A stretch of DNA of 64,000 bases. It comes from Arthrobacter cheniae (GTDB lineage Bacteria > Actinomycetota > Actinomycetes > Actinomycetales > Micrococcaceae). Within the stretch, counting starts at the first letter, position 1; every line of letters starts with the position of its first letter. Below the pieces are notes generated by a model that was not told the DNA's origin, did not search any database, and saw only the letters and a program-made list of their open reading frames with translations. Made by a program: the position numbers and the translations under genes. The stretch is from NCBI RefSeq assembly GCF_003602275.1, contig NZ_QZVT01000013.1, forward strand, positions 1 through 64,000, read 5' to 3'. Below, in pieces: positions 1 to 24,301 of this stretch.

Positions 1-33
1 TTTCCGGGCCGTCCCGAGCTCCGGTTTTCCATG

Positions 34-68
34 AACTGTTGACTAAGACGCTTGTTCCTGTAACAGTT
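34..68 (+). promoter_or_regulatory. Inverted repeat and possible promoter before hps
   Basis: A perfect 7-bp inverted repeat, AACTGTT (34-40) and AACAGTT (62-68), is separated by 21 bp. TTGACT at 39-44 and TAACAG at 61-66 are 16 bp apart and could be -35/-10 elements, so the repeat would overlap both promoter boxes as a repressor site would. It lies about 160 bp upstream of the synthase start. The promoter call is inference from position and weak consensus. Confidence 0.4.
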
Positions 69-226
69 GGCATCGCTGTGACCCGCATCACAACCACGCG
101 ATCCTCTGCTGACAAGAGGCAGCGTTCTGCCCTCGGTCTCCGCACCGGGTGCATTTCGAACTGTCTCAGAGGACCTCGGACTACTTTCATCCCCACCGCA
201 GTTTCCAGCAGAAAGAGAACAACACC

Positions 227-850
227 ATGAAGCTCCAAGTAGCCATCGATCTGCTCACCACCGAAGACGCCCTCGAACTGGCAGGCAAAGTCGCCGAGTA
301 CGTCGACATCATCGAACTCGGCACCCCCCTGATCAAGGCCGCCGGACTCTCCGTCGTCACTGCCATCAAGGAAGCCCACCCGGACAAGATCGTCTTCGCT
401 GACATGAAGACCATGGACGCCGGAGAGCTCGAAGCAGACATCGCGTTCAAGGCCGGTGCTGACCTGATGACCGTCCTCGGAACCGCCGATGACTCCACCA
501 TCGCTGGTGCCGTCAAGGCCGCCAAGGCCCACAACAAGGGCGTCGTCGTCGACCTCATCGGCGTAGCGGACAAGGTCACGCGCGCCAAGGAAGTTCGCGC
601 CCTGGGCGCGACGTTCGTCGAGATGCACGCTGGTCTGGACGAGCAGGCCAAACCCGGCTTCGACCTCAAGGGACTCCTCAGCGCCGGCGCCGAGGCCCGT
701 GTTCCGTTCTCCGTAGCGGGCGGCGTGAAGGTTGCCACCATCAAAGACGTCCAAAAGGCCGGCGCCGAGGTAGCTGTTGCCGGAGGCGCGATCTACAGCG
801 CCGCCGACCCAGCCCTGGCAGCCAAGGAACTCCGCGACGCCATCGCCTAA
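227..850 (+). CDS. hxlA: 3-hexulose-6-phosphate synthase
   Basis: Predicted 207-aa cytoplasmic (beta/alpha)8-barrel enzyme condensing formaldehyde with ribulose 5-phosphate to hexulose 6-phosphate, the first step of the ribulose monophosphate pathway. In heterotrophic actinobacteria it usually serves formaldehyde detoxification. The orotidine-phosphate-decarboxylase-superfamily signature D-x-K-x-x-D is present as D59, K61, D64, followed by conserved glycine-rich phosphate-binding segments near the C terminus (SVAGGVK, VAGGAIY). The ATG at 227 has a GAAAGAGAA ribosome site and matches the family N terminus; an earlier in-frame start at 149 would add 26 unrelated residues. No isomerase (hxlB) gene follows; a strong hairpin does. 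The related 3-keto-L-gulonate-6-phosphate decarboxylase is the main alternative, but the sequence reads closer to HPS. Confidence 0.88.
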   Translation: MKLQVAIDLLTTEDALELAGKVAEYVDIIELGTPLIKAAGLSVVTAIKEAHPDKIVFADMKTMDAGELEADIAFKAGADLMTVLGTADDSTIAGAVKAAKAHNKGVVVDLIGVADKVTRAKEVRALGATFVEMHAGLDEQAKPGFDLKGLLSAGAEARVPFSVAGGVKVATIKDVQKAGAEVAVAGGAIYSAADPALAAKELRDAIA

Positions 851-863
851 CCCTTCGAATGAT

Positions 864-901
864 GGTGGCGTCCCGCACCCCAGAATCCACGGGACGCCAC
901 C
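864..901 (+). terminator. Terminator hairpin after hps
   Basis: A perfect 12-bp inverted repeat (GGTGGCGTCCCG at 864-875, its complement at 890-901) with a 14-nt loop starts 13 bp after the stop codon. There is no clear T-tract, as is common for actinobacterial terminators. Confidence 0.75.
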
Positions 902-1235
902 CAGGGGCTCAGACCACAGATTTCAGATCCTCCAGAACGGCGCAGAGCAACGTAAGCGGGGCGGCGAGGTTTCGCGGCACACCCACTTGCTATTGGAATG
1001 TGCGGCGGTCAGATCATGCGTTGGGTGTGCAGCGGCGCAGATGGTGGGCAGGAAAGTGACTGAGGTACTTAGAGCTGAACGGCGTGTGCGCGACAACAGG
1101 GAACGTGTCCTGCAAGCGGCATTATCGCTGGCCGAGGTGTCGCGGCAGCCCTGCAGGTAGGCGGGGGAGAGGCTGCTTTCCCGGGCGAGTGGTCCTGTTC
1201 AGAGGTCGATGACAGCAGGGGCATCGAGCGCGGCT
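902..1235. other. Intergenic, no gene recognised
   Basis: Short open frames occur on the plus strand, but none has a ribosome site or family resemblance. I see nothing supportable here. Confidence 0.5.
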
Positions 1236-1837
1236 TCAGGGAGAACCTAGGGAGATGACGACGCTGCTCTTCTTGTGTCCCGATTCGACGTGGGCGTGCG
1301 CGGAGACTGCTTCGTCCAGGAGGTAGGTCCTGTCGATGACTGGGACGTAGTGTCCGGATGCTGCCAGGTCCCCCATGAACTGCACGTCCGCTGCGATGGC
1401 GGGAGCTTCCGAAGTCCGGTGAACACGATCCTCGCCCGGGTCCTACCGAACAGTGGGGTCAGAAGTGTCCAGAGGAGGACAGGGAGGGTGGGAACGGTGG
1501 TGAGGTAGATCCCGCCTGGCTTCAGGACCTTCCGGCATCGGGTGTAGGAGCTCTTTCCGACGGCGTCGAAGACCACATCGTAGGACTCGGCGGTCTCCGT
1601 GAAGTCCTCGGCTTTGTAATCGATGGTTTCGTCGGCCCCTAGGGACTTCACCAGATCAAGGTTTGCGGTGCTGCAGACGGCGGTGACATCTGCTCCGAAG
1701 TGTTTGGCGAATTGGACAGCAGCGGTGCCTACGGCGCCGGAGGCACCGTTGATCAGGATGCTCTGCCCGGCCTTCAGACCTGCGGCGTCTCTCAGGAACG
1801 GCAGGGCAGTGAGGGCGCCGTCGAGGATTGCCACGTA
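1236..1837 (-). pseudogene. Broken NAD(P)-dependent alcohol dehydrogenase (MDR/quinone oxidoreductase)
   Basis: Remnant of a medium-chain dehydrogenase. The Rossmann part is clear (LINGASGAVGTAAVQFAKHF, then ADVTAVCSTANLDLVKSLGA and DYKAEDFT). The N-terminal catalytic domain of roughly 110 residues is absent; homology begins around 1837 at ALTALPFLRDAAGLKAG. Near 1420 the frame is lost, and the genuine C terminus (AADVQFMGDLAASGHYVPVI ... HKKSSVVISL) continues in another frame to a TGA at 1236-1238. It is therefore truncated at the 5' end and frameshifted. The lost 5' half faces the dif-like sequence at 1915, so an insertion there may have cut the gene. That cause is inference. Confidence 0.85.
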
Positions 1838-1914
1838 CACCGGTCGGATACTCAAAGCAGACCTCGAGCGCCCGGCTAAAGCCAATGGTGAAGGCACTCC
1901 TCCGCCCAATTTTG

Positions 1915-1942
1915 ACCGCCGATAACCTATCTTCTGTCAATC
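1915..1942 (+). other. Degenerate dif-like XerC/XerD site (left)
   Basis: The XerC-arm-like ACCGCCGATAA (1915-1925), a 6-bp centre CCTATC, and the XerD-arm-like TTCTGTCAATC (1932-1942) align to the better site at 12185-12212. The 23-bp core is identical at 19 positions, in the same orientation. The centre and XerD arm are diverged, as expected for a decayed or hybrid attachment site. Confidence 0.5.
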
Positions 1943-2076
1943 GCGTCCATGTCTGGTTGGTTAGTCGACTGGTTCTCAGTGTTCGCCATCGTCGGCCTGC
2001 AGCTACTGAACCTGCTCTCCTACAGACCACACGTGGGGCTCGAAGTCGAATCGCATGTAACCCACAGGTGGGTGTT

Positions 2077-3204
2077 TTATGTCCGCAAGGGGCTCGGCAT
2101 TGTCGTGCTCCGCCGCACGATCAGGGTTGGTTGTAGTGTGACGCGCTGGTGTTCGTGGGTGCGCGGGTTGTCTATTTCGTCGACGAGGAGGCGGAGTGCT
2201 TCCCTCCCCATGTCGTGGCCGGGCTGGCTGACCGTCGACATGGGGATTGCTGCCTCGGAGGCGAACTGGTTGTTGTCGTATCCGATGACGGCGACGTCCG
2301 TCGGTACGGAGATTCCGGCGTCTGTGAGTTCGTGGATGAGGCCGGCTGCCAGCTGATCCGCTGGTGCCAGGATGCCGTCGGGAAGCGCGCCGGACGTGAT
2401 CAGGTCTTGGGCGATGGACCGGCCGCTCGAACTCTTGAGGTTTCGACTGTGCACCACGTCGAGGCTGACACTGCCTCCGCGCTCTCGGACAGCGCGTCGA
2501 GCGCCCTCGCGTCTGGCGTTGACCGCGTGCAGATCCTGAGGCCCGCCCGCGAACAAGAGGCGGGTGCGCCCGATGTCCATGAGGTGTGTGGCGGCGAGGT
2601 AGCCGCCGTGCTCCTCGTCGACGACCACGCTGCAGCAGTCGGTCCGGTCACCGGCGTAGTTGACGAGCACGATGTTGCGGCCGTGCCGGCGCACACGGTC
2701 GACGCCATCGAGTCCCGCGTCGAGGGGCGCGAGGATGATGCCTGCGACGCGTGCTTCGTTGAAGATGTCGAGGTAGGACTCCTGCTTCGTGAAGGTGACA
2801 TCGCTGTTGGCCAGCAGGAGTGATCGCCCGGCTGAGCTGGCTGCATCTTCGGCACCGCGGGCGATGTCGACGAAGAGCGAGTTGCCGACGTCGGTGAGGA
2901 TCATGCCAATGGTGTTGCTCCGTCCGGCAGCCAGCGATCGTGCGGCGTCGTTCCGGACGAATCCGAGCTGATCGATCGCGGCGGTCACCCGGGCCATCGT
3001 TTTGGCCGATACGATCTCCGGTTTGTTGAGCACGTGAGACACGGTGCCCAGTGAGACTCCAGCAACCCGGGCGACGTCGTTCATGCTGGGAGAGACGGCT
3101 GGTTCGTCACTCGTTGGGTGGACGGCGGTCACGGTACCTCGATCGGGGTTCGACGTTGAACGCTTCCCCGGTGGGGGCGGCTGATTCGGGAGGGCATCCC
3201 TCAT
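2077..3204 (-). CDS. LacI-family transcriptional repressor
   Basis: A 375-aa regulator. A typical LacI helix-turn-helix lies at about residues 41-65 (NDVARVAGVSLGTVSHVLNK) with the hinge helix after it (RNDAARSLAAGRSNTIG). A periplasmic-binding-protein-like sugar-sensing core follows to the C terminus (IGYDNNQFASEAAIP, TLIVRRST). It is the last gene of the importer/rhamnosidase operon, 12 nt after the GH78 stop, with no ribosome site of its own, suggesting coupled translation. About 40 residues precede the HTH, so the true start could be further in. It probably binds the TTGAAGCGYTTCAA palindromes at 9120 and 11598 and is released by a rhamnoside- or glucoside-derived sugar (inference). Confidence 0.88.
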   Translation of the reverse strand: MRDALPNQPPPPGKRSTSNPDRGTVTAVHPTSDEPAVSPSMNDVARVAGVSLGTVSHVLNKPEIVSAKTMARVTAAIDQLGFVRNDAARSLAAGRSNTIGMILTDVGNSLFVDIARGAEDAASSAGRSLLLANSDVTFTKQESYLDIFNEARVAGIILAPLDAGLDGVDRVRRHGRNIVLVNYAGDRTDCCSVVVDEEHGGYLAATHLMDIGRTRLLFAGGPQDLHAVNARREGARRAVRERGGSVSLDVVHSRNLKSSSGRSIAQDLITSGALPDGILAPADQLAAGLIHELTDAGISVPTDVAVIGYDNNQFASEAAIPMSTVSQPGHDMGREALRLLVDEIDNPRTHEHQRVTLQPTLIVRRSTTMPSPLRT

Positions 3205-3216
3205 GCTAAGGGACCG

Positions 3217-5805
3217 TCAGGAGTTGACGGCCACGTTGGAGAAGGCGTGTGTGCCGGACTGGACAGTAACTGGGCTCTGCCCCGGGAGATCGACGACAGC
3301 CGTGCAGCCGGTGGGCACGGTGACTTCAGCTGACAGTGCTCCAGCATCGACTGTCCAGGAGATCGACGCCAGTCCGTACGGTGTTTCGTGGCTGGCCTGA
3401 GCGGAGGTGATTCCGCCGCCTGGACGGGGCCGGAAGAGGATCGAGCGGTAGCCGGGCTCCGCCGGAGCCAGACCGGCGACCACCCGGTGCATCCAGTCGG
3501 CGACCGCTCCGAGCGCATAGTGGTTGAACGACGTCATCTCCCCGGGGTTGATCGACCCGTCGGGCAGCATACTGTCCCACCGTTCCCAGATGGTGGTGGC
3601 ACCCTGACCTACGGCGTAGAGCCACGAGGGGCACTGCCTCTCCATCAGGAGGGCGTACGCGGTGTCGATCTCACCGACGCTCGTAAGAGCGTCGGTGACC
3701 AGGGGTGTTCCTGCAAATCCTGTGGCAATCCGGTTCCCCGCCTGCCTCACGAGTTCAGCCAGTCGCTCACCGCTCCGCTGTTCCTGCTCTTCCGTGGATG
3801 CCAGACCGAAGGCGAGCACCAGTGCATAGGCGGTCTGGGCGTCGCTGACGACCCGGCCGGAGGGAGAGATGTACTCGCGGGCGAAGGCATCCCGGACCTT
3901 ACGCGCCAACTCCCGATAGTGGAGTTCATCGGTCGTGTTCCCCAGGACGCTGGCCATCTGGGCAAGGTGCTGTGTGGACCACGCGAAGTATGCGGTCGAG
4001 ACGAGGTAGCGATCCGTCGTGGCATCGGCGGGATCGTGGGGAGGGGCCGCGGGATCGAGCCAGTCACCGAGTTGCATGCCCGTGTTCCACAAGTAGGACT
4101 CGCCGGAACGTTCGGCCATGAGGTCCACCCACGCCTTGGCGCTGGAGTACTGGGTTGCGAGGACGCCCGTATCCCCGAAGCGCTGATACAGGGTCCATGG
4201 GGTCAGCACGGCGACGTCACCCCACACGGCTCCCGGCTGGATGGGTGTCCATTCCTCGCCCCCCGGTATCACGGGGACGTACCAGGGCACCGTGCCATCC
4301 TCAAGTTGCTCGACGGCGACGTCCTTGAGCCAGGAGCCGAGCATCCCGGAGCAGTCGTAGAGGAAGGTCGCGGTCGGGGCGAAGACCTGCAGGTCACCTG
4401 TCCAGCCGAGCCGTTCGTCGCGCTGAGGACAGTCGGTGGGGATGTCGACGAAGTTCCCGCGCATGCTCCAGCGCACGTTTTCGTGCAGCCTATTGACGTC
4501 TGCGTCGGAGCATTCGAACCACCCGGTCCGCTCCATGTCCGTGTGGTAGACGCGGGCCGTGACGGCTGCTGCCGGGTCATCGCCTGACCAGCCCGTGAGC
4601 TCGGCGTAACGGAACCCGTGGATGGTGAATCGGGGCTCCCACTCGACGTCGCTGTCGTCGCCGGCGATGTAGGTGTCGGTGGAGGCCGCCCCGCGCAGCG
4701 GACGTGTGCAGAGTTCGCCGTCTTCCAGGACTTCTGCGTGGCGCAGCCGGATTTCCTGGCCTCGCTCGAGCCCGGACAGGCTCACCCTGAGTCGGCCGAC
4801 CAGGTTCTGCCCGAAGTCGAGGATCGTCGTGCCCGACGGAGATGTCGTGATGGCAACAGGTGCGAGTTCTTCCGTGCAGCGGACGGGCGGGCCCTCGGGC
4901 GCAACCAACGTCGAAGGATCACGTCGGACAACCCGAACCGGGGACCAAGCGGTGTCGTCAAACCCGGGGGAGGACCATCCGCGAGCTTCTTCGCGGGCGT
5001 CGTACGCCTCACCCTCGTACAGCCCGGTGGTCAGGATCGGCCCGAAGGAGGCACGCCATGATTCGTCGGAGGCAATGACGGTGATGCTTCCGTCGTCGTG
5101 GGTGATGTGTAGTTGAGCCAGGAGGGCGATGTCTGTCCCGTAGAGGTTCTGGTGACCTCCGTGGAAGCCGAGGCGGCCGCGGTACCAGCCATCAGCGAGC
5201 CAGCTGCCGATGGCGTTCGGGCCGGCGACGAGATTTTCGGTCACGTCGTACGTCGCGTAGCGCAGTCGTTCGCCGTAGACGGTCCAGCCCGGCGCAAGGG
5301 CCTCCTTGCCGATGCGACGTCCGTTGATCTCCACCTCGTAGAGGCCGTGGGCTGTGACGTAGAGGCGCGCGGAGTGGACGGGTCGGGGGAGTGTGAAGTC
5401 GCGTCGCATCAGCGGGGGGCGGCGGAGGGTATCGGCGTCTTCAGCCCAGGCGGGAGAAATGGCGTGGGCTGTCCAGCCGGAGGCCTCGAGGATTCCGGTT
5501 TCCGCGGTTGTGGCCGGGCTCCATTCGCTGGGTATCTCCGTGCCGGCTCCCCAGACCCGGACCCGTACGGAGACGGCAGTCTGTGAGGTGAGGTCTCTTC
5601 CCGGCCAGGGGACGAGCACCGAGTCGGGGGAGAAGACCACGCGTGAAAATCCTGCACCGGATGCGTCCGTCACCTCGATCTCGTACCGTTCCTGTGTCCA
5701 CTCGGGGTCTGCCGTGGTCTTCCAGCTCAACCGGGGTCGCGGCTCTCCGATGCCCAGCGGCTCGCGGTGGTGCTCGAACGAGAGAGGGCTGACGGTTACT
5801 GGCAT
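3217..5805 (-). CDS. rhaB-like: Alpha-L-rhamnosidase (GH78)
   Basis: An 862-aa glycosidase removing terminal alpha-L-rhamnose from plant glycosides. N-terminal beta domains (SPLSFEHHREPLGIGEPRPR start; carbohydrate-binding rhamnosidase N domains) precede an (alpha/alpha)6 catalytic barrel. The family motif CPQRDERLGWTGD places the acidic pair at D463/E464, and a second conserved acid lies in the IWERWDS motif (E741), in the position of the general base. There is no signal peptide, so it acts in the cytoplasm on imported rhamnosides. ATG 5805 is chosen because the family N terminus begins there and an AGAAGGATCC ribosome site precedes it; an upstream in-frame start at 5868 adds 21 unrelated residues. 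It lies downstream of the two permease genes and upstream of lacI. Confidence 0.93.
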   Translation of the reverse strand: MPVTVSPLSFEHHREPLGIGEPRPRLSWKTTADPEWTQERYEIEVTDASGAGFSRVVFSPDSVLVPWPGRDLTSQTAVSVRVRVWGAGTEIPSEWSPATTAETGILEASGWTAHAISPAWAEDADTLRRPPLMRRDFTLPRPVHSARLYVTAHGLYEVEINGRRIGKEALAPGWTVYGERLRYATYDVTENLVAGPNAIGSWLADGWYRGRLGFHGGHQNLYGTDIALLAQLHITHDDGSITVIASDESWRASFGPILTTGLYEGEAYDAREEARGWSSPGFDDTAWSPVRVVRRDPSTLVAPEGPPVRCTEELAPVAITTSPSGTTILDFGQNLVGRLRVSLSGLERGQEIRLRHAEVLEDGELCTRPLRGAASTDTYIAGDDSDVEWEPRFTIHGFRYAELTGWSGDDPAAAVTARVYHTDMERTGWFECSDADVNRLHENVRWSMRGNFVDIPTDCPQRDERLGWTGDLQVFAPTATFLYDCSGMLGSWLKDVAVEQLEDGTVPWYVPVIPGGEEWTPIQPGAVWGDVAVLTPWTLYQRFGDTGVLATQYSSAKAWVDLMAERSGESYLWNTGMQLGDWLDPAAPPHDPADATTDRYLVSTAYFAWSTQHLAQMASVLGNTTDELHYRELARKVRDAFAREYISPSGRVVSDAQTAYALVLAFGLASTEEQEQRSGERLAELVRQAGNRIATGFAGTPLVTDALTSVGEIDTAYALLMERQCPSWLYAVGQGATTIWERWDSMLPDGSINPGEMTSFNHYALGAVADWMHRVVAGLAPAEPGYRSILFRPRPGGGITSAQASHETPYGLASISWTVDAGALSAEVTVPTGCTAVVDLPGQSPVTVQSGTHAFSNVAVNS

Positions 5806-5881
5806 GGAGAGGATCCTTCTCGGTGTTGGAACGCCGCCGGGTAGGCGGAGGAGATGCGAGTCGTGCAATGGAGGCGAAGTG

Positions 5882-6790
5882 TCAGCCTTTGACGGAACCG
5901 GCTGCGAGACCCTTCATGATGCGCTGGTTGAGGAAGAGGTAGATGGCCAGGGTCCCGAAGACGTTGAGGCAGATGGCGGCGAAGAGTGGGCCGTACTGGA
6001 CGGTTCCGAACTGTCCAGTGAAGTTCAGGAGTCCCACCTGGATGGTGCTCAGGTCACTGTTGTTGGCGAAGGTCAGTGCGATCAGGAGGTCGTTCCAAAT
6101 GAAGAAGAACTGGACGAGGGCCACAGTGAAGACTGCGTTACGGACCATGGGGAAGCCGATGGAGATGAAGGACCTGATGATGCTGGCGCCGTCGAGGGTG
6201 GAGGCTTCGAAGACTTCGCGGGGTACGGCTCGGAAGTAGGTGGCCATCATGAACACCGTCAGGGGTAGGCCGGTAGCAGTGTAGGTGATGATGAGCGGCC
6301 AAAGCGTCCCGGTCAGACCGGTGTTGAAGTAGGCGGAGAACAGGGGAAGCAGGATCATCTGGCCCGGCACCATGATGCCGGTCAGGAAGATCAGAAGAAC
6401 GCCGTTGCGCCCCTTCCAGACCATGACCTCGAGGGCGAAGCCGGCCGCGACGCCGAAGACGATGATCAGGGCCAGCGACGGAAGTGTGGCCATCAGTGAA
6501 TTGGCGACGAACACCGCGAGGTTGCCGGTGGTCCAGGCCTCGACGTAATTGTCGAAGTTGAACGATCCGGGCAGCGACCACACAGGGTCGTTGAGGAATT
6601 CCTGCTGTGTCTTGAATGAGCCGAGGACCAGCCAGAGCAGGGGGTAGAGCACGACGACGAGCAGGAGGGCGATCAGCAGGTGGACGGGAAGTTTCGCCCA
6701 GCGCTTCGCGGCGCGGGATCGTGTGCGGCGCGGCTCCTGGCGCTGCATCGCCTCGAGGGGCACTTTCTGGTCGGGGGCCTGTGTGCTCAT
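5882..6790 (-). CDS. Sugar ABC transporter permease (MalG type)
   Basis: A 302-aa inner-membrane permease of the carbohydrate uptake (CUT1) family, with about six membrane helices. The EAA loop that contacts the ATPase is visible as EVFEASTLDGASIIRSFISI followed by GFPM. The basic N-terminal tail (RRTRSRAAKRWAKL) is cytoplasmic. Its ATG lies 4 nt after the stop of the partner permease and has an AAGGAC ribosome site inside that gene. No ATPase gene is present in the operon; CUT1 systems in actinobacteria commonly borrow a shared MsiK-type ATPase encoded elsewhere (family knowledge). Confidence 0.93.
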   Translation of the reverse strand: MSTQAPDQKVPLEAMQRQEPRRTRSRAAKRWAKLPVHLLIALLLVVVLYPLLWLVLGSFKTQQEFLNDPVWSLPGSFNFDNYVEAWTTGNLAVFVANSLMATLPSLALIIVFGVAAGFALEVMVWKGRNGVLLIFLTGIMVPGQMILLPLFSAYFNTGLTGTLWPLIITYTATGLPLTVFMMATYFRAVPREVFEASTLDGASIIRSFISIGFPMVRNAVFTVALVQFFFIWNDLLIALTFANNSDLSTIQVGLLNFTGQFGTVQYGPLFAAICLNVFGTLAIYLFLNQRIMKGLAAGSVKG

Positions 6791-6794
6791 GGCG

Positions 6795-7679
6795 TCAGTC
6801 CTTGGTGAGGTCGCGGCGCGAGGACCGGAAGATGAAGATGGTCACGATCAGGCACAGCAGCGTGAGCAGCAGCGCGATCGAGCTGCCGTAGCCGTAGTCG
6901 CCGAAGGCGAAGGAGGTGCGGAACATGTAGAGCGTCAGCGGCGTGGTGGAGGACCCGGGTCCGCCGTTGGTCAGCGCCACGATGGAGTCGAAGACCTTGA
7001 GGGTTCCGTTGATGCTGAAGATGATTGAGGACAACAGGACGGGCATGGAGAGGGGCAGGACGATGTTCTTGATGAGTCGCCATCCGGTGGCGCCGTCGAG
7101 CCGGGCCGATTCGAGCATGTCCTCGGGGATGTCCACGAGGCCGGCGTACAGCAGGACGGCGTAAAAGCCCATGGACCGCCAGATGTCCATGAGGACGATG
7201 ACCCAGAACGAGCTCGAGGAGCTACCGAACCAGTCCACCGACTCGACTCCCACACCATTGAGAAGGCTGTTGACGAGCCCGTTCTGCGGGGCGATCTCGA
7301 ACATCTTCTGGAAGAGGAGGGCAACGGCCACCGTGGGGAGCACGACAGGGAAGAACACCAGCGTGCGGATGATGTTCGAGGACTTCTTCAGGATGAAGAC
7401 GTACATGAGCGCCAGGGCGTAGCCCATCAGGATCTGACCGATCGTGATCACGATGGCGTACCGGACGGTGAAGGACAGCGCGGTGCGGACTTCGGGGTCC
7501 GTGAACAGGCGGGTGAAGTTATCGGTCCCCGCGAAGGTGAAGCCGGAGATCGCGTTGCCGCTGAAGAAGGTGTAACCCATGGACCAGATGATGGGCACGA
7601 GCATCACCAGGGTGTACACCAGCAGTGCTGGGCCGAGGAGGATGATGAGGGCTTTCTTGTCGCCCAGTACTGACTGCAT
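6795..7679 (-). CDS. Sugar ABC transporter permease (MalF type)
   Basis: A 294-aa CUT1 permease with about six membrane helices. The EAA motif is DMLESARLDGATGWRLIKNI with VLPLSMP after it. ATG 7679 has an AAAGGACC ribosome site. It is separated from the upstream binding-protein gene by a 39-nt perfect hairpin (7737-7775), which probably lowers permease expression relative to the lipoprotein. It forms the membrane channel with the MalG-type partner. Confidence 0.93.
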   Translation of the reverse strand: MQSVLGDKKALIILLGPALLVYTLVMLVPIIWSMGYTFFSGNAISGFTFAGTDNFTRLFTDPEVRTALSFTVRYAIVITIGQILMGYALALMYVFILKKSSNIIRTLVFFPVVLPTVAVALLFQKMFEIAPQNGLVNSLLNGVGVESVDWFGSSSSSFWVIVLMDIWRSMGFYAVLLYAGLVDIPEDMLESARLDGATGWRLIKNIVLPLSMPVLLSSIIFSINGTLKVFDSIVALTNGGPGSSTTPLTLYMFRTSFAFGDYGYGSSIALLLTLLCLIVTIFIFRSSRRDLTKD

Positions 7680-7736
7680 GGTGGTCCTTTTGTTTACGGC
7701 TGGCGTGTGGGCCAGTCGGTGGCCCAGACGGTTTGA

Positions 7737-7775
7737 GCGCCGGGGAAGGAAGGCGTCGCCTTCCTTCCCCGGCGC
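7737..7775 (-). terminator. Intra-operon stem-loop between binding protein and permeases
   Basis: An 18-bp perfect inverted repeat (7737-7754 with 7758-7775) with a 3-nt loop lies 10 bp after the binding-protein stop codon. No T-tract follows on the minus strand. Such structures between binding-protein and permease genes usually stabilise the upstream mRNA or cause partial termination. Confidence 0.75.
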
Positions 7776-7784
7776 GCTCGTACC

Positions 7785-9089
7785 CTACTTGAGGGCGGAC
7801 TGCACCGTATCCATGAACTGCTCGGGGCTCATGCTGCCGGTGACCAGGGGTGCGGCGTTGGTCTGGCTGGCCGTGGTCGCCTGGGTGCCGAAGAGAGCCT
7901 CGAACCACAGGACGCTTTCGCTGGTGTCGGCGATGGTGTCCTGGACGGTCTGGGTCAGGGGATCGACGTCGACTTCCTCGTTGACCTTGAAACCGGAGAT
8001 GGCGCCCTTCTCCGCGAGGCCGACGCTGCCGTAGTTCTCGGTGATGCAGCTCAGCCATTCACCGGTCTGGTCGTTGTAGGCCTTCTCGGAGATCGCCATG
8101 GGCAGGCCGACGTTCGCTGCGTACTGGTTGTCGATGCCGGCGCCGCCGTCGACCTTGGGGAACGGCATGAAGCCGATGTTCTCGGCGCCGATCTGGTTGG
8201 CGGCCTCGTCGTTGAAGTTCGCGAGCACCCAGCTGCCCATGTAGAGCATGCCGGCCTCACCGGTGAGGAACTGGTTGACGGCGGTGTCGTAGTCGATAGA
8301 CCCGATGCCCTCACCGAAGTAACCCTTGGAGCCGAGGTCGGCGACCGCAGCGGCTGCCTCGACGTACTCGGGGTCAGTGAGCTTCGCCTCACCGTCGGCA
8401 ACCTTCTGCAGCGCGTCCTTGCCGAGGTCGCTGAAGAGGTATCCGCTGATGAGGCGTGTCAAGGGCCAGCCCTGCTCGCCGGAGGCGGAGAGAGGAGTGA
8501 CGCCCGAGGAATTGAGGGTCTCGGCGGCCGCGGTGAAGTCGTCCCAGGTCGCAGGGACCTCGATGTTGTTGTCGGCGAAGAGCTGCTTGTTGTACCAGAT
8601 GCCCTCGACGTTGTACTCGTAGGGCAGGACATTGAAACCGCCGTACAGCGCCTTCACGGTATCGATGGCTGCGGGCTCCACCTGGTCGATGACGCCCAGA
8701 TCGTTCAACGTAGCCTCGAGGTCCAGGACGTTGCCGGAGTCGGCGAGTTCCTTCGTCAGGGCGGGAGCGGAACCTGCGGCGAACTGGGCCGGCAGGGCGC
8801 CCTGGCCTGCCTGCAGCTGGAGTTGCTGGTCGAGGCTGGTCTGCGGGACGGTGTCCACCTTCAGCGGCATCGCATCAGCTGCGGTCTTGCACTGATCCCC
8901 AGCCAGGGTCTCCAGGACAGCAGGGATGGTGGTGTTCTCGACGACGCTGAGAGTCGTGAATTCGCCGGCCTCGCTCTCGCCCCCGCCGTCGTTCGAACTG
9001 CCGGCTCCGCAGCCGGTCAGCAGCAGCGATACGGTGCTGAGTCCTACGCCCAGGAACAGCATCCGGTTCTTATTACGCGTGGTGGCCAC
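7785..9089 (-). CDS. Extracellular sugar-binding lipoprotein of ABC importer
   Basis: A 434-aa CUT1 solute-binding protein. A lipoprotein signal peptide ends in the lipobox LLLTGC, giving a membrane-anchored cysteine, followed by a GSSNDGGGESEAGE linker. The rest is a type-I extracellular sugar-binding fold (EGIWYNKQLFADNN, AGMLYMGSWVLANF). The start is GTG at 9089 with a near-perfect AAGGAGGAAAC ribosome site 5 nt away; the frame is open further upstream, but those residues look random. First gene of the importer-rhamnosidase-lacI operon, with promoter and LacI-type operator directly upstream. Confidence 0.93.
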   Translation of the reverse strand: MATTRNKNRMLFLGVGLSTVSLLLTGCGAGSSNDGGGESEAGEFTTLSVVENTTIPAVLETLAGDQCKTAADAMPLKVDTVPQTSLDQQLQLQAGQGALPAQFAAGSAPALTKELADSGNVLDLEATLNDLGVIDQVEPAAIDTVKALYGGFNVLPYEYNVEGIWYNKQLFADNNIEVPATWDDFTAAAETLNSSGVTPLSASGEQGWPLTRLISGYLFSDLGKDALQKVADGEAKLTDPEYVEAAAAVADLGSKGYFGEGIGSIDYDTAVNQFLTGEAGMLYMGSWVLANFNDEAANQIGAENIGFMPFPKVDGGAGIDNQYAANVGLPMAISEKAYNDQTGEWLSCITENYGSVGLAEKGAISGFKVNEEVDVDPLTQTVQDTIADTSESVLWFEALFGTQATTASQTNAAPLVTGSMSPEQFMDTVQSALK

Positions 9090-9119
9090 GTTTCCTCCTT
9101 GAAAGTGTGCGCCCCGTCT

Positions 9120-9169
9120 TTGAAGCGTTTCAATTATTGAGGTTAGGGGGTCGTCGGGCCCTGTGTCAA
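9120..9169 (-). promoter_or_regulatory. Promoter and LacI-type operator of the importer operon
   Basis: Reading the minus strand, TTGACA (9169-9164) and TAACCT (9145-9140), 18 bp apart, form a plausible promoter. The operator TTGAAGCGTTTCAA (9120-9133), a near-perfect 14-bp palindrome centred on CG, lies just downstream, where a LacI repressor would block transcription. The same palindrome, perfect, precedes the GH3 gene at 11598. Confidence 0.7.
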
Positions 9170-9256
9170 CAGTCACATCGGGTGCTGGTCGCTCCTCACT
9201 TGCCCTACCCCCGGTTCGGACTGCTAGGCCTCGCCAATGGTGTCGCACACGACAAA

Positions 9257-9286
9257 GGACCCGCCCCCTCTTGGTGGGGCGGGCCC
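9257..9286 (-). terminator. Terminator after the GH3 gene
   Basis: Stem of 11 bp (9257-9267 with 9276-9286), perfect on the minus-strand RNA if one G-U pair is allowed, followed on that strand by CCTTTGT. It is GC-rich with an 8-nt loop and lies about 30 bp after the GH3 stop. A T-run on the plus side makes it possibly bidirectional. Confidence 0.7.
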
Positions 9287-9318
9287 TTCGTTTTTGACGC
9301 TCTGTCGGTAGTGCTGGG

Positions 9319-11574
9319 CTAGCGCACGGTCGCAGAGGAGCGGAGCGGCAGTGCCTGCGACGAAGAACCGACCTCGAGGGTGAACTCACCTGTCGGCGTC
9401 GTCCAGGTGTCGCGTTCTGCGTCCCAGATCGACAGCGGGTGATCAGGTCCGTTGGCGTCGATGACCAAATGAACCTGCGTTGTCTGATTCGGCTTGAGAG
9501 TGACCTTCTCGAATCCGACCAGGCGTTTGCCGGGTTCGCCGGCGGCACCGGGCAGGGTCAGGTAGACCTGGCCCACTTCGGCCCCTGCTGTCTTGCCGGC
9601 GTTTTTGATCTGGAACTTCACGTCCAGAGAAGTGGTGCCGGTTTCCTTGTCCACCACGGGCTTCACACGGAGGTTCCGGTATTCGAAGTCGGTGTAGGAC
9701 AGACCGTGACCGAAGCCGAACAGGGGCTTGATGCCCTGGGACTCATACCACTTGTAGCCCATGGCAAGGCCTTCGGTGTAGTCGACCTGGCGGATCTCCT
9801 GCGAACCTGTCGGAGCGGTCGTTGAGCCGTTGGAGAAGACACCGGGGTACTGCTCAGGGGAATTGGTCGGGGTGTCAGCGAGGGAAGCGGGGAAGGTCAT
9901 CGGGAGCTTGCCCGAGGGGTTCACGTCCCCCCACAGGAGGTTCACCAGGGCCGGTCCTTGCTGTTCACCGGCGTACCAGCTCTCGAGTACAGCCTCGGTC
10001 TTTCCGAGCCAAGGCATCTCTACAGCGCTTCCGGTCTGCAGGATCGCTACCGTGTTCGGGCTCGCGGAGGCAACGGCCTCGATCAGGGCGTCACCGTTTC
10101 CGGCGAGACGGAGGTTCGGCAGGTCGTTGAATTCACCGGACTTGTAGTACCCGACGACGAGGGTGACGTCGGCCTTCGCTGCGACCGCGGCCGCTCGCTG
10201 CGGGTCTGAGCCGTTGTCGAAGACGACGGTGGATCCTTCTGCTGCGGCACGCTCTCGGACTGCGTCCTCGATCGTCACGATGCTTTCGCAGGTCAGCGTA
10301 TTCGGGGAGCCGAACGGCCAGACCATGCTGCAGGTCGACAGGGCGCTGATGCCATTGGTGGGCGTCGAAGAACCAGTCGGGCCAATGATTGCAATGGTCT
10401 TGGGCGTCGAGGACAGCGGGAGGACACCGTCGTTCTTCAGAAGGACAGTGCCTTCCTCGACAGCCTGCCGCGCGAGGTCCTTGTGAGCGGCGGTCGAGAC
10501 CGAGCCTTCGGCCGGGGCGGGGAGGGGAGTGTCGAACAGTCCACCGCGGATGTAGGAGCGCACGACGTTGAAGGCCGCTCCGTCGATGGTCTGCTCGGTG
10601 ATCTCGCCGGCAGCCAGCGCTTGGGTGAGACGTTCAGGTGTGTAGTAGATCGGTCGGTTGAGTTCCTGGTCCAGTCCCGCATTCAGGGAAGGCCCGGTCG
10701 AATGCACTGCGCCGAAATCGGACATGACGTATCCGTCGAAGCCGAGTTTGTCCCGCAGGGTGTCCTTCAGCAGCGGGTTCTCGCAGGCATAGACCCCGTT
10801 GATCTGGTTGTAGGAGCACATGATGCTCTCGGGCTCGCCCTCGGCGATGGTGATCTCGAATGGAAGATCGTAGGCCTGATGCAACGTCCGCTCGTCGATG
10901 TTAGAACTGCTCGCGTTTCTGGAGACTTCCTGCTCGTTGGCGACGTAGTGCTTGACGTTGGAGAGGACCGGCTTGTCGGGATTGCGTTCCTCGATACCGC
11001 GGATCGCTGCTCCGGCAAGAGTGCCGCTCAACAACGAGTCCTCACCGAAATACTCTGCGGTGCGCCCGGAGAGCGGAGTGCGGCCGCTCGCGATGCCCGG
11101 GCCGAGCACGACGTTCTTGCCCTTGTCGAAGGCCTCGGCTGCCTGCGCGGCGCTCTTGTCGAAGACAAGACCCCGGTTCCAGGTCGCCCCAAGGGCGATG
11201 GGCGCCGGGAACGCCGTCACGCCCTCTGTGAATCTCACGCCATCGGGTCCATCGGTGTACACAACCTTCGGCGTGCACGGCAGCTGGGCCTCGTACTGCA
11301 CGGTGCCGAACGCCGTCTTGGTCGGATCATTTGCCGGTTGCTCGACAAGCCAGCGGTACTTCTGCCCGAGCGAACTCGCATCCAGCAAGATCCGGGCACG
11401 CTCGTCATGGGACTTCGAGGTATCCATCCACGGGCACTCCGCCGGATAGGACGCCGGTGCGGCGCCTTTGGCTTCCGCTGCCGGCACCTGACCTCCAAAT
11501 GAGGCCACCAGAAAGCCGCCTACTGCTAGCGCAGCCAGAGCCCGCCGTGCTGACGTACGAGATCGATGTTTCAC
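9319..11574 (-). CDS. bglX-like: Secreted beta-glucosidase/beta-xylosidase (GH3)
   Basis: A 751-aa GH3 enzyme. A twin-basic N terminus and hydrophobic stretch (ALAALAVGGFLVASF) followed by AAEAKG look like a cleavable secretion signal. The GH3 N-terminal barrel contains the nucleophile motif GYVMSDFGA (Asp286). The alpha/beta sandwich domain and a C-terminal fibronectin-III-like domain (GLSYTDFEYRNLRV, LVGFEKVTLKPNQT) follow. The start is GTG at 11574 with AAGGAGGA upstream. Its operator matches that of the importer operon, so extracellular glucose removal and uptake/rhamnose removal are probably co-induced, as needed for naringin- or rutin-type glycosides (inference). Confidence 0.9.
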   Translation of the reverse strand: MKHRSRTSARRALAALAVGGFLVASFGGQVPAAEAKGAAPASYPAECPWMDTSKSHDERARILLDASSLGQKYRWLVEQPANDPTKTAFGTVQYEAQLPCTPKVVYTDGPDGVRFTEGVTAFPAPIALGATWNRGLVFDKSAAQAAEAFDKGKNVVLGPGIASGRTPLSGRTAEYFGEDSLLSGTLAGAAIRGIEERNPDKPVLSNVKHYVANEQEVSRNASSSNIDERTLHQAYDLPFEITIAEGEPESIMCSYNQINGVYACENPLLKDTLRDKLGFDGYVMSDFGAVHSTGPSLNAGLDQELNRPIYYTPERLTQALAAGEITEQTIDGAAFNVVRSYIRGGLFDTPLPAPAEGSVSTAAHKDLARQAVEEGTVLLKNDGVLPLSSTPKTIAIIGPTGSSTPTNGISALSTCSMVWPFGSPNTLTCESIVTIEDAVRERAAAEGSTVVFDNGSDPQRAAAVAAKADVTLVVGYYKSGEFNDLPNLRLAGNGDALIEAVASASPNTVAILQTGSAVEMPWLGKTEAVLESWYAGEQQGPALVNLLWGDVNPSGKLPMTFPASLADTPTNSPEQYPGVFSNGSTTAPTGSQEIRQVDYTEGLAMGYKWYESQGIKPLFGFGHGLSYTDFEYRNLRVKPVVDKETGTTSLDVKFQIKNAGKTAGAEVGQVYLTLPGAAGEPGKRLVGFEKVTLKPNQTTQVHLVIDANGPDHPLSIWDAERDTWTTPTGEFTLEVGSSSQALPLRSSATVR

Positions 11575-11597
11575 ATGTCCTCCTTGACATAGCGCTT

Positions 11598-11616
11598 TTG
11601 AAGCGCTTCAATTTTA
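11598..11616 (-). promoter_or_regulatory. LacI-type operator and -10 box of the GH3 gene
   Basis: TTGAAGCGCTTCAA (11598-11611) is a perfect 14-bp palindrome. On the minus strand TAAAAT (11616-11611) directly abuts it and could be the -10 box. It matches the operator at 9120-9133 in 13 of 14 positions. Confidence 0.7.
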
Positions 11617-11869
11617 GTTCGTACCTTGCCGCGTTGGTGTTTCGATAAGGGGCATGAGCTATCCGATATGTGATCGTGGTCTCATGTAGGCACCAACGTA
11701 GGGTGGGTTTGACTGTCCCGTCAAGATCACCTTCTGCACATCTGGGAACCGAGCTCGCAGGACAGGGGGTACGTGTGGAGTCGCGTGAAGATCTCGATGC
11801 CGGATCCACAGTCGGTGCTCTGACTTATAAGCTTCGTTCCTTCACGAACTTTCTCGTCATCACACCTAG

Positions 11870-12145
11870 CACGTCGATATTGAGCTCACCTACGGCAGAA
11901 GGACAGACAAAAGGGCACTGTCGGAATACACTCGAGCCGACGGACGATCCTTCAACACCTACATGGATGAACTGCAGTGGCCGCAGACTGAACTGGTCCA
12001 GCATCTGAAGAAACGCTCAGCGTTCATCAGCATCACGCTTGAGGACATCACCAGAATTACCGACCGTTTCGAGATCCTTTACAGCATCAACGCGGACCCA
12101 GAGGCAGTGCCGCCGCCTGCTGACAGATCCATTGTTGGAAGGTAG
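11870..12145 (+). other. Open frame of unknown family, possible gene remnant
   Basis: From just after an in-frame TAG (11867) to 12145 the frame encodes about 91 residues with protein-like composition (DIELTYGRRTDKRALSEY, NTYMDELQWPQTELVQHL, RFEILYSINADPEAVPPP). The first ATG is at 11963 and no ribosome site is obvious, so it may be the 3' end of a lost gene. I do not recognise it. The rest of 11617-11869 holds nothing I can support. Confidence 0.35.
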
Positions 12146-12184
12146 AACATAGCCCCTTCTGTGAGCTCTCCGGACGAACCTCAA

Positions 12185-12212
12185 ATCGCCGATAATCTAC
12201 ATTATGTCAGGT
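12185..12212 (+). other. dif: dif-like XerC/XerD recombination site (right)
   Basis: ATCGCCGATAA (12185-12195), centre TCTACA, TTATGTCAGGT (12202-12212). As I recall it, the actinobacterial dif consensus has RCCGATAAT, two variable bases, then ACATTATGTCAA; this site agrees at all but about two of 28 positions and contains the expected imperfect dyad. Dif is where XerC/XerD resolve chromosome dimers, normally opposite the origin, so this may mark the replication terminus, or an integrated copy. Confidence 0.75.
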
Positions 12213-12265: not shown

Positions 12266-12751
12266 CTAGTCGAAGGCCGCCGTGAGTTCATCGGCCGGCG
12301 GCAGGGCGCGTTGCTCAGCCGTGGGAAGGTTCTACGGAGAAGTTCAGTTTGCCGGCGTACTCGGGCTGGAACGTGCCGGTCTTGAGTTCGATGACGAAAT
12401 AGCGCAGCTGCTCCACATGGAAGAACAACAAGTCGATGTAGAGGTCATCGCCCTCAACTTCAAAGTGCACCTGTCGCCCGACGAACTCGAATCCTGGAGA
12501 CGTGTTCCCGGAGTGTTGTACTGCAGGTTCCGTGACGAGAAGCCGGTCCAATCACGGAACTCACTTCGAAGGTCGGATGCCAGCAGGGCGACGACCTTAC
12601 TCCCCCATCCGTCCTCCTCCTGACGCGCAAGCACGTCTCGACCAATACCTCAGTACAGCTCGATCAGCTGCCTAGTGACTGTTCGCTGGGCGCTGTGGCG
12701 GGCACTACGTACGCGATCTTTCAGCACCAACACCACCGGCCGCCGAGTCAT
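12266..12751 (-). pseudogene. Decayed YhcG/DUF1016 PDDEXK nuclease gene
   Basis: Fragments of the YhcG family appear in order but in shifting frames. First is the N-terminal domain from ATG 12751 (KDRVRSARHSAQRTVTRQLI, then ELY and a TGA where the family has Trp). GIGRDVLARQEEDGWGSKVV and SSRNLQYNTPG follow. The PDDEXK core comes next (FEFVGRQVHFEVEGDDLYID, FVIELKTGTFQPEYAGKLNF). A tail, EQRALPPADELTAAFD, ends at TAG 12266. At least one nonsense mutation, two frameshifts and large internal deletions reduce an approximately 340-aa family to about 160 codons. Such genes are often found in restriction or defence islands and mobile DNA. Confidence 0.8.
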
Positions 12752-12957
12752 GAGGCGCCATCGGAACCTTCACCAACAGCACGGTGGCTGTATGCGCGAG
12801 ATCAATGAGTCGTGTTCTTCATGCCGGTTCGAACAACGTCCCTGCCCACCCTGTCCGAATAGTCCAGGAATCGGCTGCCGGCGCAACGGAACTGAACCAC
12901 CTCGTGGACGCATGTAACCTATTGCGACACCCCCTCAATGATTGGACTGAGACACTC

Positions 12958-13260
12958 ATGGCAACCGACTACGACGAGCCCCGCGTTCGCCCGGAAGACC
13001 AGCCCGCCAACGAGTCGCTCGAGGCGATCCAAGCCCAGCGCAGCAGCACCACGCAAACCTCCGTCATCGACGTCGAGGACAGCGACACCGCCGAGGGCTT
13101 CGACCTGCCCGGCGCGATCCTTGAAGAAGAACTCCTGGTCCAGGTCGTCCCCGTCCAGGAAGACGAGTTCACCTGCATGTCATGCTTCCTCGTCCACCAC
13201 CGAACTCAGCTTGCCCGTGAGAAAAACGGCGACAAGTACTGCGCCGAGTGCGAGGGATGA
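12958..13260 (+). CDS. DUF4193 family protein
   Basis: A 100-aa acidic protein of an actinobacteria-specific family. The conserved start MATDYDEPR, the middle GFDLPGA, and the signature DEFTCMSCFLVHHRTQLA with a second pair CAEC near the end form a small zinc-ribbon-like C-terminal module. The ATG at 12958 matches the family start; an upstream in-frame start at 12784 would add 58 unrelated residues. Function is not established; family members are usually single genes near housekeeping loci. Confidence in the family is high and in the function nil. Confidence 0.88.
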   Translation: MATDYDEPRVRPEDQPANESLEAIQAQRSSTTQTSVIDVEDSDTAEGFDLPGAILEEELLVQVVPVQEDEFTCMSCFLVHHRTQLAREKNGDKYCAECEG

Positions 13261-17206: not shown

Positions 17207-17590
17207 TCATTCACGCACCCCGATCTGATCCCGTAACCCGCTGATCATTGCGGTCAGCCCTCCCTCGAAGGCAGTGTCAGCTCGGCTTTCATCCGGGCCG
17301 GGGGGTCTGCTGCTGACAACCGCGGCAGTGAAGGTCGGGAACTCCCCGGCAAGGCTGCCGGAGTCGAAGATGTTCTCCGGCGCAGACACATCCAGCGCCG
17401 AGCCGTAAATGAAGGATTCGATGGCCACGATGCCGGGAACGACTCGCTCCGGGGGCCAGCCGCCATTGATGAGGCCGACGGCAACCTGCTCGTACATCCT
17501 TAAGGTATCCGGCGCTCCGCCGACCGGCATGACCGCGATGATCGGGATCAGCGGTGCGTGCAGGGCGAAGATGTCACGGTAGGTCGAGGT
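17207..17590 (-). pseudogene. TetR C-terminal domain remnant (no HTH)
   Basis: Encodes only the ligand-binding half of a TetR regulator. The recognisable run is TYRDIFALHAPLIPIIAVMP, then RMYEQVAVGLINGGWPPERV and ESFIYGSALDVSAPENIF. It is similar in plan to the neighbouring intact TetR (FALGSALESTAPDEVW), so it may be a duplicated, decayed paralogue. The DNA-binding domain is missing; upstream the frame meets a TGA within about 30 codons. Non-functional as a repressor on this evidence. Confidence 0.7.
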
Positions 17591-17741
17591 TCGACCGCGT
17601 GATGAGGTCCCGGGTCAGAACCTTCCTTGGCGGTCTCCCCGCCCGGCGGGGCGTGCCCTGTGATGACACGGCAGTGCGCTCGGACGAACCCATCTGGGGT
17701 TGTGCAAAATCAGCCACGTCCTCTACAGTGATCCAAAATAA

Positions 17742-17756
17742 ATGAACGTCATTCAT
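17742..17756 (+). promoter_or_regulatory. TetR-type operator before the amine oxidase operon
   Basis: ATGAACG-T-CATTCAT lies 30 bp upstream of the amine oxidase start and about 12 bp after a possible -10 (TACAGT, 17724-17729) with TTGTGC (17700-17705) as a weak -35. It matches the site at 16451-16465 in 13 of 15 positions. An in-frame ATG at 17742 overlaps the operator and is not the likely start. Confidence 0.72.
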
Positions 17757-17786
17757 TTTGTGGCGTCGATCATCCTGGAAGGCACC

Positions 17787-19181: not shown

Positions 19182-19295
19182 CTGAACGATCCTGCTGATG
19201 GCGGAGCACAACCGTGCCCGTCATCGAGATACCAGGTCATCACACTCCATGCACGGGTCAACGACGACCCCTTGCCCAGTCAGAAAAGGCGCACC

Positions 19296-20846: not shown

Positions 20847-20867
20847 CCGCGCTCCGAAGTCACGATC

Positions 20868-20895
20868 GATAACCGCTGACCGATAACCGCTGACC
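20868..20895 (+). repeat. Two tandem 14-bp repeats
   Basis: CGATAACCGCTGAC occurs twice without a gap, 22 bp after the permease stop codon. There is no hairpin. The rest of 20896-21109 holds no gene I can support. Confidence 0.6.
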
Positions 20896-21109
20896 GCTCG
20901 TGCCCGTATGAAAGGGGAACGCCCCGATGACCTCGACCCGCCACCAGACACTTCCACCACTCACTCCCGCCACGACCAGGGATCACAATGCTCACGTAGA
21001 TCCTTCATGCACACCCCGGTGCGAATACTGCTCAGGACCGGAAACGGACTAAGGGCCTGCAAGGAACCCTCCCAGCCTCGAGCGCACACCACGACGAAAA
21101 GAAGATCCC

Positions 21110-23973: not shown

Positions 23974-23979
23974 TTGATT

Positions 23980-24001
23980 TTCGTCAGCCTATGTTGACGA
24001 A
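23980..24001. repeat. Short inverted repeat after the amidase gene
   Basis: TTCGTCA (23980-23986) and TGACGAA (23995-24001) pair across an 8-nt loop, 6 bp after the amidase stop. It may be a weak terminator or a relic site linked to the neighbouring recombinase fragment. Confidence 0.45.
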
Positions 24002-24055: not shown

Positions 24056-24301
24056 TCACACTGGCGGTTCCACTCTCGGCTTCCGGCCCTTTGGTGGAGT
24101 CACCTGATCGCGCTTGAGGGTTGGATAGATGGTGGTCCTGCTGACTCCGAGGACGTGGCCGATCTGTTCAACGGTCATGTCCTGCTGCTCCTCCATGCGC
24201 CGTGGGGCAGTGACCTCGTGAGGACCGAGCCGTGGGCGCCCTCCCGTGCGACCTCGAGCACGGGCTGCTGGAGGCAACGATGGTGTTCGAGAGCCTTGCA
24301 T
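24056..24301 (-). pseudogene. Resolvase/invertase C-terminal remnant
   Basis: Encodes the C-terminal part of a serine recombinase: AARARGRTGGRPRLGP linker, then the HTH_7 domain (MTVEQIGHVLGVSRTTIYPT). The catalytic domain with the nucleophile serine is missing; only traces such as DELERSMQG remain upstream in frame. It cannot recombine on its own. Confidence 0.72.

Follow-up and report, generated by a model that had tools for sequence, protein, structure and literature searches.

Within the window, a 64,000-nucleotide stretch of Arthrobacter cheniae DNA (contig NZ_QZVT01000013.1, positions 1 to 64,000), a rhamnoside cluster, with genes for the use of a plant sugar, lies between two directly repeated dif-like sites. 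Pfam identifies the cargo, all on the minus strand, as genes for a LacI-family regulator (2077 to 3204), a GH78 alpha-L-rhamnosidase (3217 to 5868; NCBIfam match below the curated cut-off), two ABC permeases (5882 to 6790 and 6795 to 7679), an extracellular solute-binding protein (7785 to 9092; the Pfam match is on 7788 to 9155, and the start was inferred from a 435-amino-acid homologue in the related genome G002) and a GH3 glycosidase (9319 to 11574), whose best NCBIfam match is an arabinopyranosidase model, under its cut-off. This gene content agrees with the first-pass annotation, which had proposed a single module of GH3, importer, GH78 and LacI genes between the sites. Immediately outside the left site lies a zinc dehydrogenase remnant (1247 to 1909, minus strand), identified by DNA homology and Pfam, in which the match to the N-terminal ADH_N domain is absent and whose homology to relatives ends at position 1835, 82 bp before the site, as expected from the earlier description of a truncated gene. 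Further left, a 3-hexulose-6-phosphate synthase gene (195 to 875) has a 98% identical copy on another contig of the window genome (G000:C22:4585-5265).

The Pfam-identified genes between the sites include no transposase, phage or secretion genes. A profile search for tyrosine recombinases (PF00589) found none on the window contig and matches on C23, C26, C27 and C28 only; the previous statement that the module contains no recombinase thus holds for this class. The host genome encodes XerC and XerD (NCBIfam); the XerD gene scores above the curated cut-off, and the XerC gene matches the XerC model best yet falls below its cut-off. As potential attachment sites, neither tRNA genes nor RNA families at the gathering score were detected in the window. 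With the whole module as the query, a plasmid collection returned one Streptomyces record (73.6% identity over 20% of the query), and the gaps between cargo and sites (1935 to 2110 and 11600 to 12190) had no match in loci L032 to L101.

Two Xer sites in direct orientation

The right site, CGCCGATAATCTACATTATGTCA (12187 to 12209, plus strand), is the sole match in the window at up to three mismatches and is the commonest dif sequence of the genus. A dif pattern with two free spacer bases was found in all 38 genus genomes, 22 of them with 0 mismatches, and the Frankia dif quoted in PMC3025954 agrees with the window sequence. The cumulative GC skew of the window rises until about 17 kb and then falls, which fits a terminus nearby, although its peak lies about 5 kb to the right of dif. 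The site combines an XerC-6-XerD organization, conservation in the genus and proximity to the GC-skew shift, and pattern searches of the window, genome and genus identify it as the chromosomal dif, in line with the near-consensus actinobacterial dif placed earlier at 12185 to 12212.

The left site, CGCCGATAACCTATCTTCTGTCA (1917 to 1939, plus strand), lies 10.27 kb from dif and 1.9 kb from the contig end, has the same orientation as dif and is identical to it at 19 of 23 positions; the second-best place in the window reaches only 16. Of 100 first-order Markov simulations, none produced a place matching at 19 positions (places matching at 18 or more averaged 0.01), and the expectation that such a match would be rare by chance was borne out. 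A search of all 37 contigs of the genome (4,019,022 bases) with the dif pattern at up to three mismatches yielded just the places at 12187 and 1917, and the reversed control matched none. With a looser pattern (XerC arm-N6-XerD arm, up to two mismatches), a third match appeared at C17:120651, where the sequence is possibly coding and has counterparts in other genomes; the reversed pattern matched twice in this same genome.

Within the left site, the XerC arm GCCGATAA matches at 8/8 positions and the XerD arm TTCTGTCA at 7/8, and the spacer CCTATC differs from the dif spacer TCTACA at three of six positions, including both ends. The exact 23-mer occurs again in G003:C8, and a 22-mer of the site, allowing A or C at one place, was found in five stretches of an 84,980-species collection (Arthrobacter agilis 4041, Arthrobacter sp. 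B0490, an uncultured Arthrobacter, Arthrobacter sp. ISL-95 and Nocardioides sp. Root140); G037 also has the 22-mer and is absent from those five stretches. Given the perfect XerC arm, the single XerD-arm mismatch, the distinct spacer and the recurrence in other genomes, the left site is better read, from its sequence, as a secondary Xer site than as a decayed dif. The earlier label of a degenerate or hybrid dif was thus right in recognizing a dif-like site and probably wrong as to its degeneracy.

The 16-kb contig G003:C8 was considered as a donor replicon for the left site, as a candidate plasmid, and set aside: nothing on it matches window positions 1 to 40000, and the five open reading frames scanned there encode members of the IclR, luciferase-like, MFS, peptidase S15 and binding-protein families. 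Separately, window positions 1 to 103, at the contig start, are shared with another contig of the window genome (G000:C15:1-103), and contig C15 carries a further worn dif-like site (L057 3475-3496, minus strand) with the spacer CCTATC, followed by acaaATGTTGACG.

The cluster and the dif neighbourhood in relatives

Window positions 2105 to 11615 are 80% identical to G006:C1:237663-247110, and the remainder of the cluster, GH3 excluded, has 82% identity in G003, G002 and G021. This homology ends about 165 bp and about 570 bp before the two sites. Both flanks of the cluster are common to G003 and G006, with one also present in G002, and the 17 to 20 kb read around the cluster in these three genomes held no site matching at 13/16 or more. 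The first-pass annotation had held that insertion at dif would be refuted by related strains whose module has no dif in its vicinity, and G002, G003 and G006 are such relatives. The flanks of the G006 cluster are found on contig C16 of the window genome, where 2.0 kb of other genes stand in place of 11 kb in G006, and the only full match of the cluster in the window genome is on C20, which indicates that the cluster lies at dif instead of at the G003/G006 locus, not in addition to it. We read the location in G003, G006 and G002 as the probable usual home of the cluster, with which a later move is compatible. Because the divergence of the cluster from G006 (80% identity) resembles that of its flanks (79 to 86%), relocation and separate acquisition both fit. 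G021 has the cluster's GH3 gene next to a dif-like site (C59:42712), on its XerC side and near a contig end, and a YhcG gene follows beyond the site, an arrangement also seen in the window.

No genome was found with an empty site in which the sequence left of 1917 is joined to that right of 12209. A comparison of window positions 1 to 1914 with the 38 genomes matched chiefly two genes, those for hexulose-phosphate synthase and the dehydrogenase, with no match placed beside dif so as to rebuild the junction, and the left flanks of the relatives' dif sites do not match positions 1 to 1916. The original proposal of a catabolic island inserted at dif therefore stands in part: direct Xer sites flank the cluster and the cluster is absent from the G003/G006 locus, but the empty site was not recovered.

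The neighbourhood of dif is variable among relatives, as judged from alignments. In eight of the 15 relatives compared a left arm is conserved; the edge they have in common is 0.57 to 9.6 kb away from dif, and the DNA in between differs. In G012 the left-arm match stops further out, and the other six have no match within the fetched stretch. In the window genome, the conserved left arm is on C26 with its edge 5.7 kb from the contig end, which would place it at least about 17.9 kb from dif if C26 precedes C20. The right arm, common to G001, G003, G012, G023 and G025, is on C23 in the window genome.

To the right of dif, homology to G024, G007 and G019 delimits a second cargo block (17221 to 23975, plus strand) encoding an amine oxidase, an amino-acid permease, a PAD_porph deiminase and an amidase. 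It is 88 to 89% identical to a G024 block that lies between two direct dif-like sites. Parts of the block (17696 to 17797 and 19253 to 23928, with most of the amine oxidase gene missing) also occur to the right of dif in G019 and G007, beginning 0.25 kb and about 2.5 kb from it, respectively. Beside the dif of G024 itself the block is missing: within 0.8 kb there, similarity to the window passes from position 12294 to position 24074, where the match is only 123 bp long. Where the G024 homology ends, we read by eye a probable fossil dif-like site (23965 to 23999, plus strand), with degenerate arms followed by GCCTATGTTGACG. An insertion about 140 bp to the right of dif, seen between G007 and G019, has no dif-like site visible at its edges.

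Secondary sites, break points and companion genes

In the 38 genus genomes, the arm-N6-arm pattern gave 117 matches (true dif sites and the window genome included), compared with three for the reversed pattern, two of them in the window genome; the 117 retain two-mismatch matches of near-identical recurrent sequence (for example, with the spacer cagcgc) that are possibly coding. Among the 78 matches at up to one mismatch, the spacer TCTACA occurs 30 times, and CCTATC and TCGACA five times each. In a family sample, at least 134 of 139 genomes have a match at up to one mismatch, several with more on other contigs, and the reversed pattern contributed one match among the matches listed, in the window genome. 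Of 20 family stretches fetched, 14 are on contigs of 27 to 245 kb and three on contigs longer than 3 Mb. All five whole Micrococcaceae plasmid records searched (pAO1 and pCZY among them) match at up to three mismatches and four of the five at up to two, with none for the reversed pattern. The phenomenon is wider than one island. On viral contigs, 72 stretches (L102 to L173) contain the arm-N6-arm pattern, L137 twice within about 50 bp.

Neighbouring sites on one contig within 60 kb form 20 pairs in the genus, the window pair included, and all 20 are direct repeats; the pairs are partly non-independent, three coming from one G021 contig and four from one G024 contig, and one (G002) includes a possibly coding match. 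Outside the genus, pairs at up to two mismatches among the matches listed, counted by eye, comprise three direct and four inverted, so the direct layout is a feature of the genus.

Similarity between loci breaks at dif and dif-like sites more often than expected by chance. Of 63 sites, 16 have an alignment end no more than 15 bp away (null mean 3.3, maximum 10 in 500) and 47 have none; in an earlier count on fewer loci, 42 of 1,256 ends lay no further than 40 bp from a site (null mean 7.3, maximum 27 in 300). The loci compared had been selected for their sites, and the null distributed sites uniformly. For example, G010:C42 and G009:C1 share 3,959 bp at 99.8% identity, ending just past a dif-like site, and are unrelated beyond it. 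On the G009 side an integrase gene follows, and on the G010 side the first ~80 bp have their counterpart to the right of the true dif in G005; the G005 and G010 flanks both lead to YhcG, with an extra pRiA4b ORF-3-like gene first in G010. Similarly, an alignment of G022:C33 with G025:C41 (5,006 bp, 97.6% identity) reaches a site beyond which the two are different, although only 80 bp of the G022 contig remain there. In G022, the same ~75 bp follow the true dif and two secondary sites that differ in left flanks and spacers, after which the contigs end. The right flank of the window dif likewise recurs beside secondary sites in G003, G006, G023 (twice) and G024. When the fetched loci were searched for modules that one locus has and another lacks, none had sites at both ends, and two rows had a site at one end. 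At L056 ~15697 (G021:C59), homology of a YhcG unit to G021:C12 ends at a dif-like sequence with a 7-bp rather than a 6-bp spacer.

A remnant of a YhcG/DUF1016 PDDEXK nuclease gene (12327 to 12494, minus strand; profile match to model positions 42 to 97 of 157), in a stretch that contains stop codons, converges on the window dif and is the sole YhcG match in the window genome; relatives have longer open copies. YhcG (PF06250) occurs in 24 of the 38 genomes at 42 loci (46 rows, four merged as fragments), and 19 of these loci, the window remnant included, lie within 1 kb of a site, against ~0.09 expected under uniform placement and a nominal genome size. Among the fetched loci, 14 of 81 sites have a convergent YhcG gene in the 500 bp that follow them downstream (null mean 0.48, maximum 3 in 300). 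Two direct sites bracket YhcG in G021:C12, G021:C59, G032:C3 and G006:C1 (where the left site matches at only 13/16), and in G021:C12 it is the only open reading frame of at least 150 amino acids between the two sites. The YhcG gene of G021:C59 shares the orientation of its site, whereas that of the window faces dif. YhcG-bearing right flanks could have spread partly by homologous recombination. A DUF4193 gene, identified by Pfam at 12784 to 13260 (plus strand) of the window, has homologues within 2.5 kb downstream of seven of the 81 sites.

Tyrosine integrase genes lie within 500 bp downstream of eight of the 81 sites (null mean 0.29, maximum 3 in 300). They belong to a family located ~220 to 460 bp downstream in the orientation of the site (L037, L065, L085, L090, L178, L194, L207 and L209), and the sites concerned include the true dif sites of G001 and G012. 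In pCZY, the integrase is followed by a helix-turn-helix gene and then a long gene, and at three sites such an integrase gene lies upstream. These genes may mark an element whose own integrase directs it to dif. With such integrase-bearing elements at dif in some relatives, borrowing of XerCD is not the sole route to this position.

Proposed assembly at dif and relation to known systems

We consider it fairly probable that the region is a dif-module island built by recombination at Xer sites, with the rhamnoside cluster as one of its modules. In such a scheme, secondary Xer sites with the XerC and XerD arms of dif and varied 6-bp spacers, present on plasmids and chromosomes of the genus and family, would be recombined by the host XerC and XerD, integrating a circle that may be a plasmid cointegrate or an excised module and leaving its cargo between directly repeated sites. 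Integration of a circle through one site must yield direct repeats, and the uniformly direct pairs in the genus thereby support circle integration. The rhamnoside cluster would have arrived at dif in this manner, with the secondary site (spacer CCTATC) on one side and the resident dif on the other, and excision would then be hampered by the spacer mismatch and the altered XerD arm, keeping the cargo in place. The differing spacer ends also count against this scheme, since they make the left site and dif a poor substrate pair. Further points against it are the empty site that was not found, the gaps between cargo and sites that had no match in L032 to L101, the clusters of G002, G003 and G006 with no site around them, the nearness of the left site to a contig end, the 47 sites with no alignment end close by, and the two reversed-pattern matches in the window genome. 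Judged from sequence comparisons, insertion of cargo at dif through Xer sites is partly supported.

Other histories would account for parts of this layout. It is unlikely, in our estimate, that the cluster was moved to the terminus by an insertion sequence or by homologous or illegitimate recombination and that the left site is by chance the border of another module or an integrated plasmid; this reading draws on cluster homology that stops short of both sites, on relatives that keep the cluster without sites and on a dif neighbourhood that varies regardless, and is opposed by the G021 GH3 gene, which adjoins a dif-like site on the same side, and by the lack of a transposase among the Pfam-identified genes between the sites. 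Quite unlikely, too, is delivery of the cargo or of the left site by a dif-targeting element that encoded a tyrosine integrase and lost this gene later. Integrases close downstream of eight sites, including two true dif sites, lend it some weight, but 73 of the 81 sites have none within 500 bp downstream, the window contig is devoid of PF00589, and a LacI gene sits downstream of the left site where such elements carry their integrase. A chance origin of the left match, to which its mere 19 of 23 positions and the two reversed-control matches under the looser pattern would point, is highly improbable and was rejected on the whole-genome pattern search and the simulations: no simulated window reached 19, the site is one of two dif-pattern matches in the genome and lies close to the other, and the exact 23-mer recurs in G003:C8.

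The position of many sites at the borders of differing gene blocks suggests, by analogy, that the proposed dif-module island belongs to a gene-shuffling system like that of Acinetobacter. The dif (pdif) modules of Acinetobacter similarly carry cargo between XerC-6-bp-XerD sites with varied spacers and have no recombinase of their own; they are exchanged between plasmids and chromosomes and form multi-module islands (PMC12907356, PMC13141974). There, however, sites alternate in orientation, defining C and D modules, and direct pairs are described for fused CD modules (PMC13141974), and the modules are associated with Rep_3/OrfX plasmids, whereas all 20 pairs in this genus are direct. The window thus has cargo bounded by two sites without inversely oriented flanking sites, and further differs in its catabolic cargo, the YhcG gene often beside the sites and its actinobacterial host. 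Recurrence of the same module in other contexts bounded by sites was seen for the 17.2 to 24 kb block (its G024 copy) and for YhcG units; of the rhamnoside cargo elsewhere, only the GH3 gene adjoins a site (G021). One account calls the dif module system unique to Acinetobacter species (PMC13141974). The literature matches listed (titles and starts of abstracts, with subscription journals largely outside) included no dif modules in Arthrobacter or other actinobacteria and no direct-repeat dif modules tied to a YhcG nuclease gene.

Integrative mobile elements exploiting Xer (IMEX; CTX-phi, TLC-phi, VGJ-phi, the gonococcal genomic island and EludIMEX-1) place cargo at dif with one divergent site and use the host XerCD (PMC5357621). 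The island resembles them in its position at dif, its direct dif-like sites and its lack of a tyrosine integrase, but phage and secretion genes are missing from its identified cargo, and arrays of sites are also present on plasmids and at places other than dif. LME-1 of Legionella is a mobile element in dif with a dif mimic, and its stability is reported to depend on a modified downstream dif (PMC9765430); it is likened here by description alone and differs in having another host with a single recombinase.

More tentatively, and as a reading we think somewhat less likely to be right than wrong, Micrococcaceae may possess an Xer-cassette system of their own, with an origin independent of that of Acinetobacter, in which dif-like sites of varied spacer (direct in the genus), frequently with a YhcG/DUF1016 PDDEXK companion and some with a ATGTTGACG element, would shuffle catabolic cargo between plasmids and the terminus, with dif itself as a docking site. 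If true, host Xer recombination would be a wider route for the movement of metabolic genes, extending beyond Acinetobacter to an actinobacterial family, with direct rather than alternating borders and involving both plasmids and the terminus. It would also give a nuclease family (YhcG) a possible role in module movement and explain why the dif neighbourhood varies so much among these species. The ATGTTGACG-like element, a motif picked after the sequences had been seen, lies just past the XerD arm at 15 of 39 genus secondary sites, at none of 16 dif sites and at none of the 26 sites from other genera and plasmids. Together with the end of the XerD arm, it forms by eye an inverted repeat (TGTCAAC..GTTGACG), as at L034 10676, L048 10125 and L179 9996.
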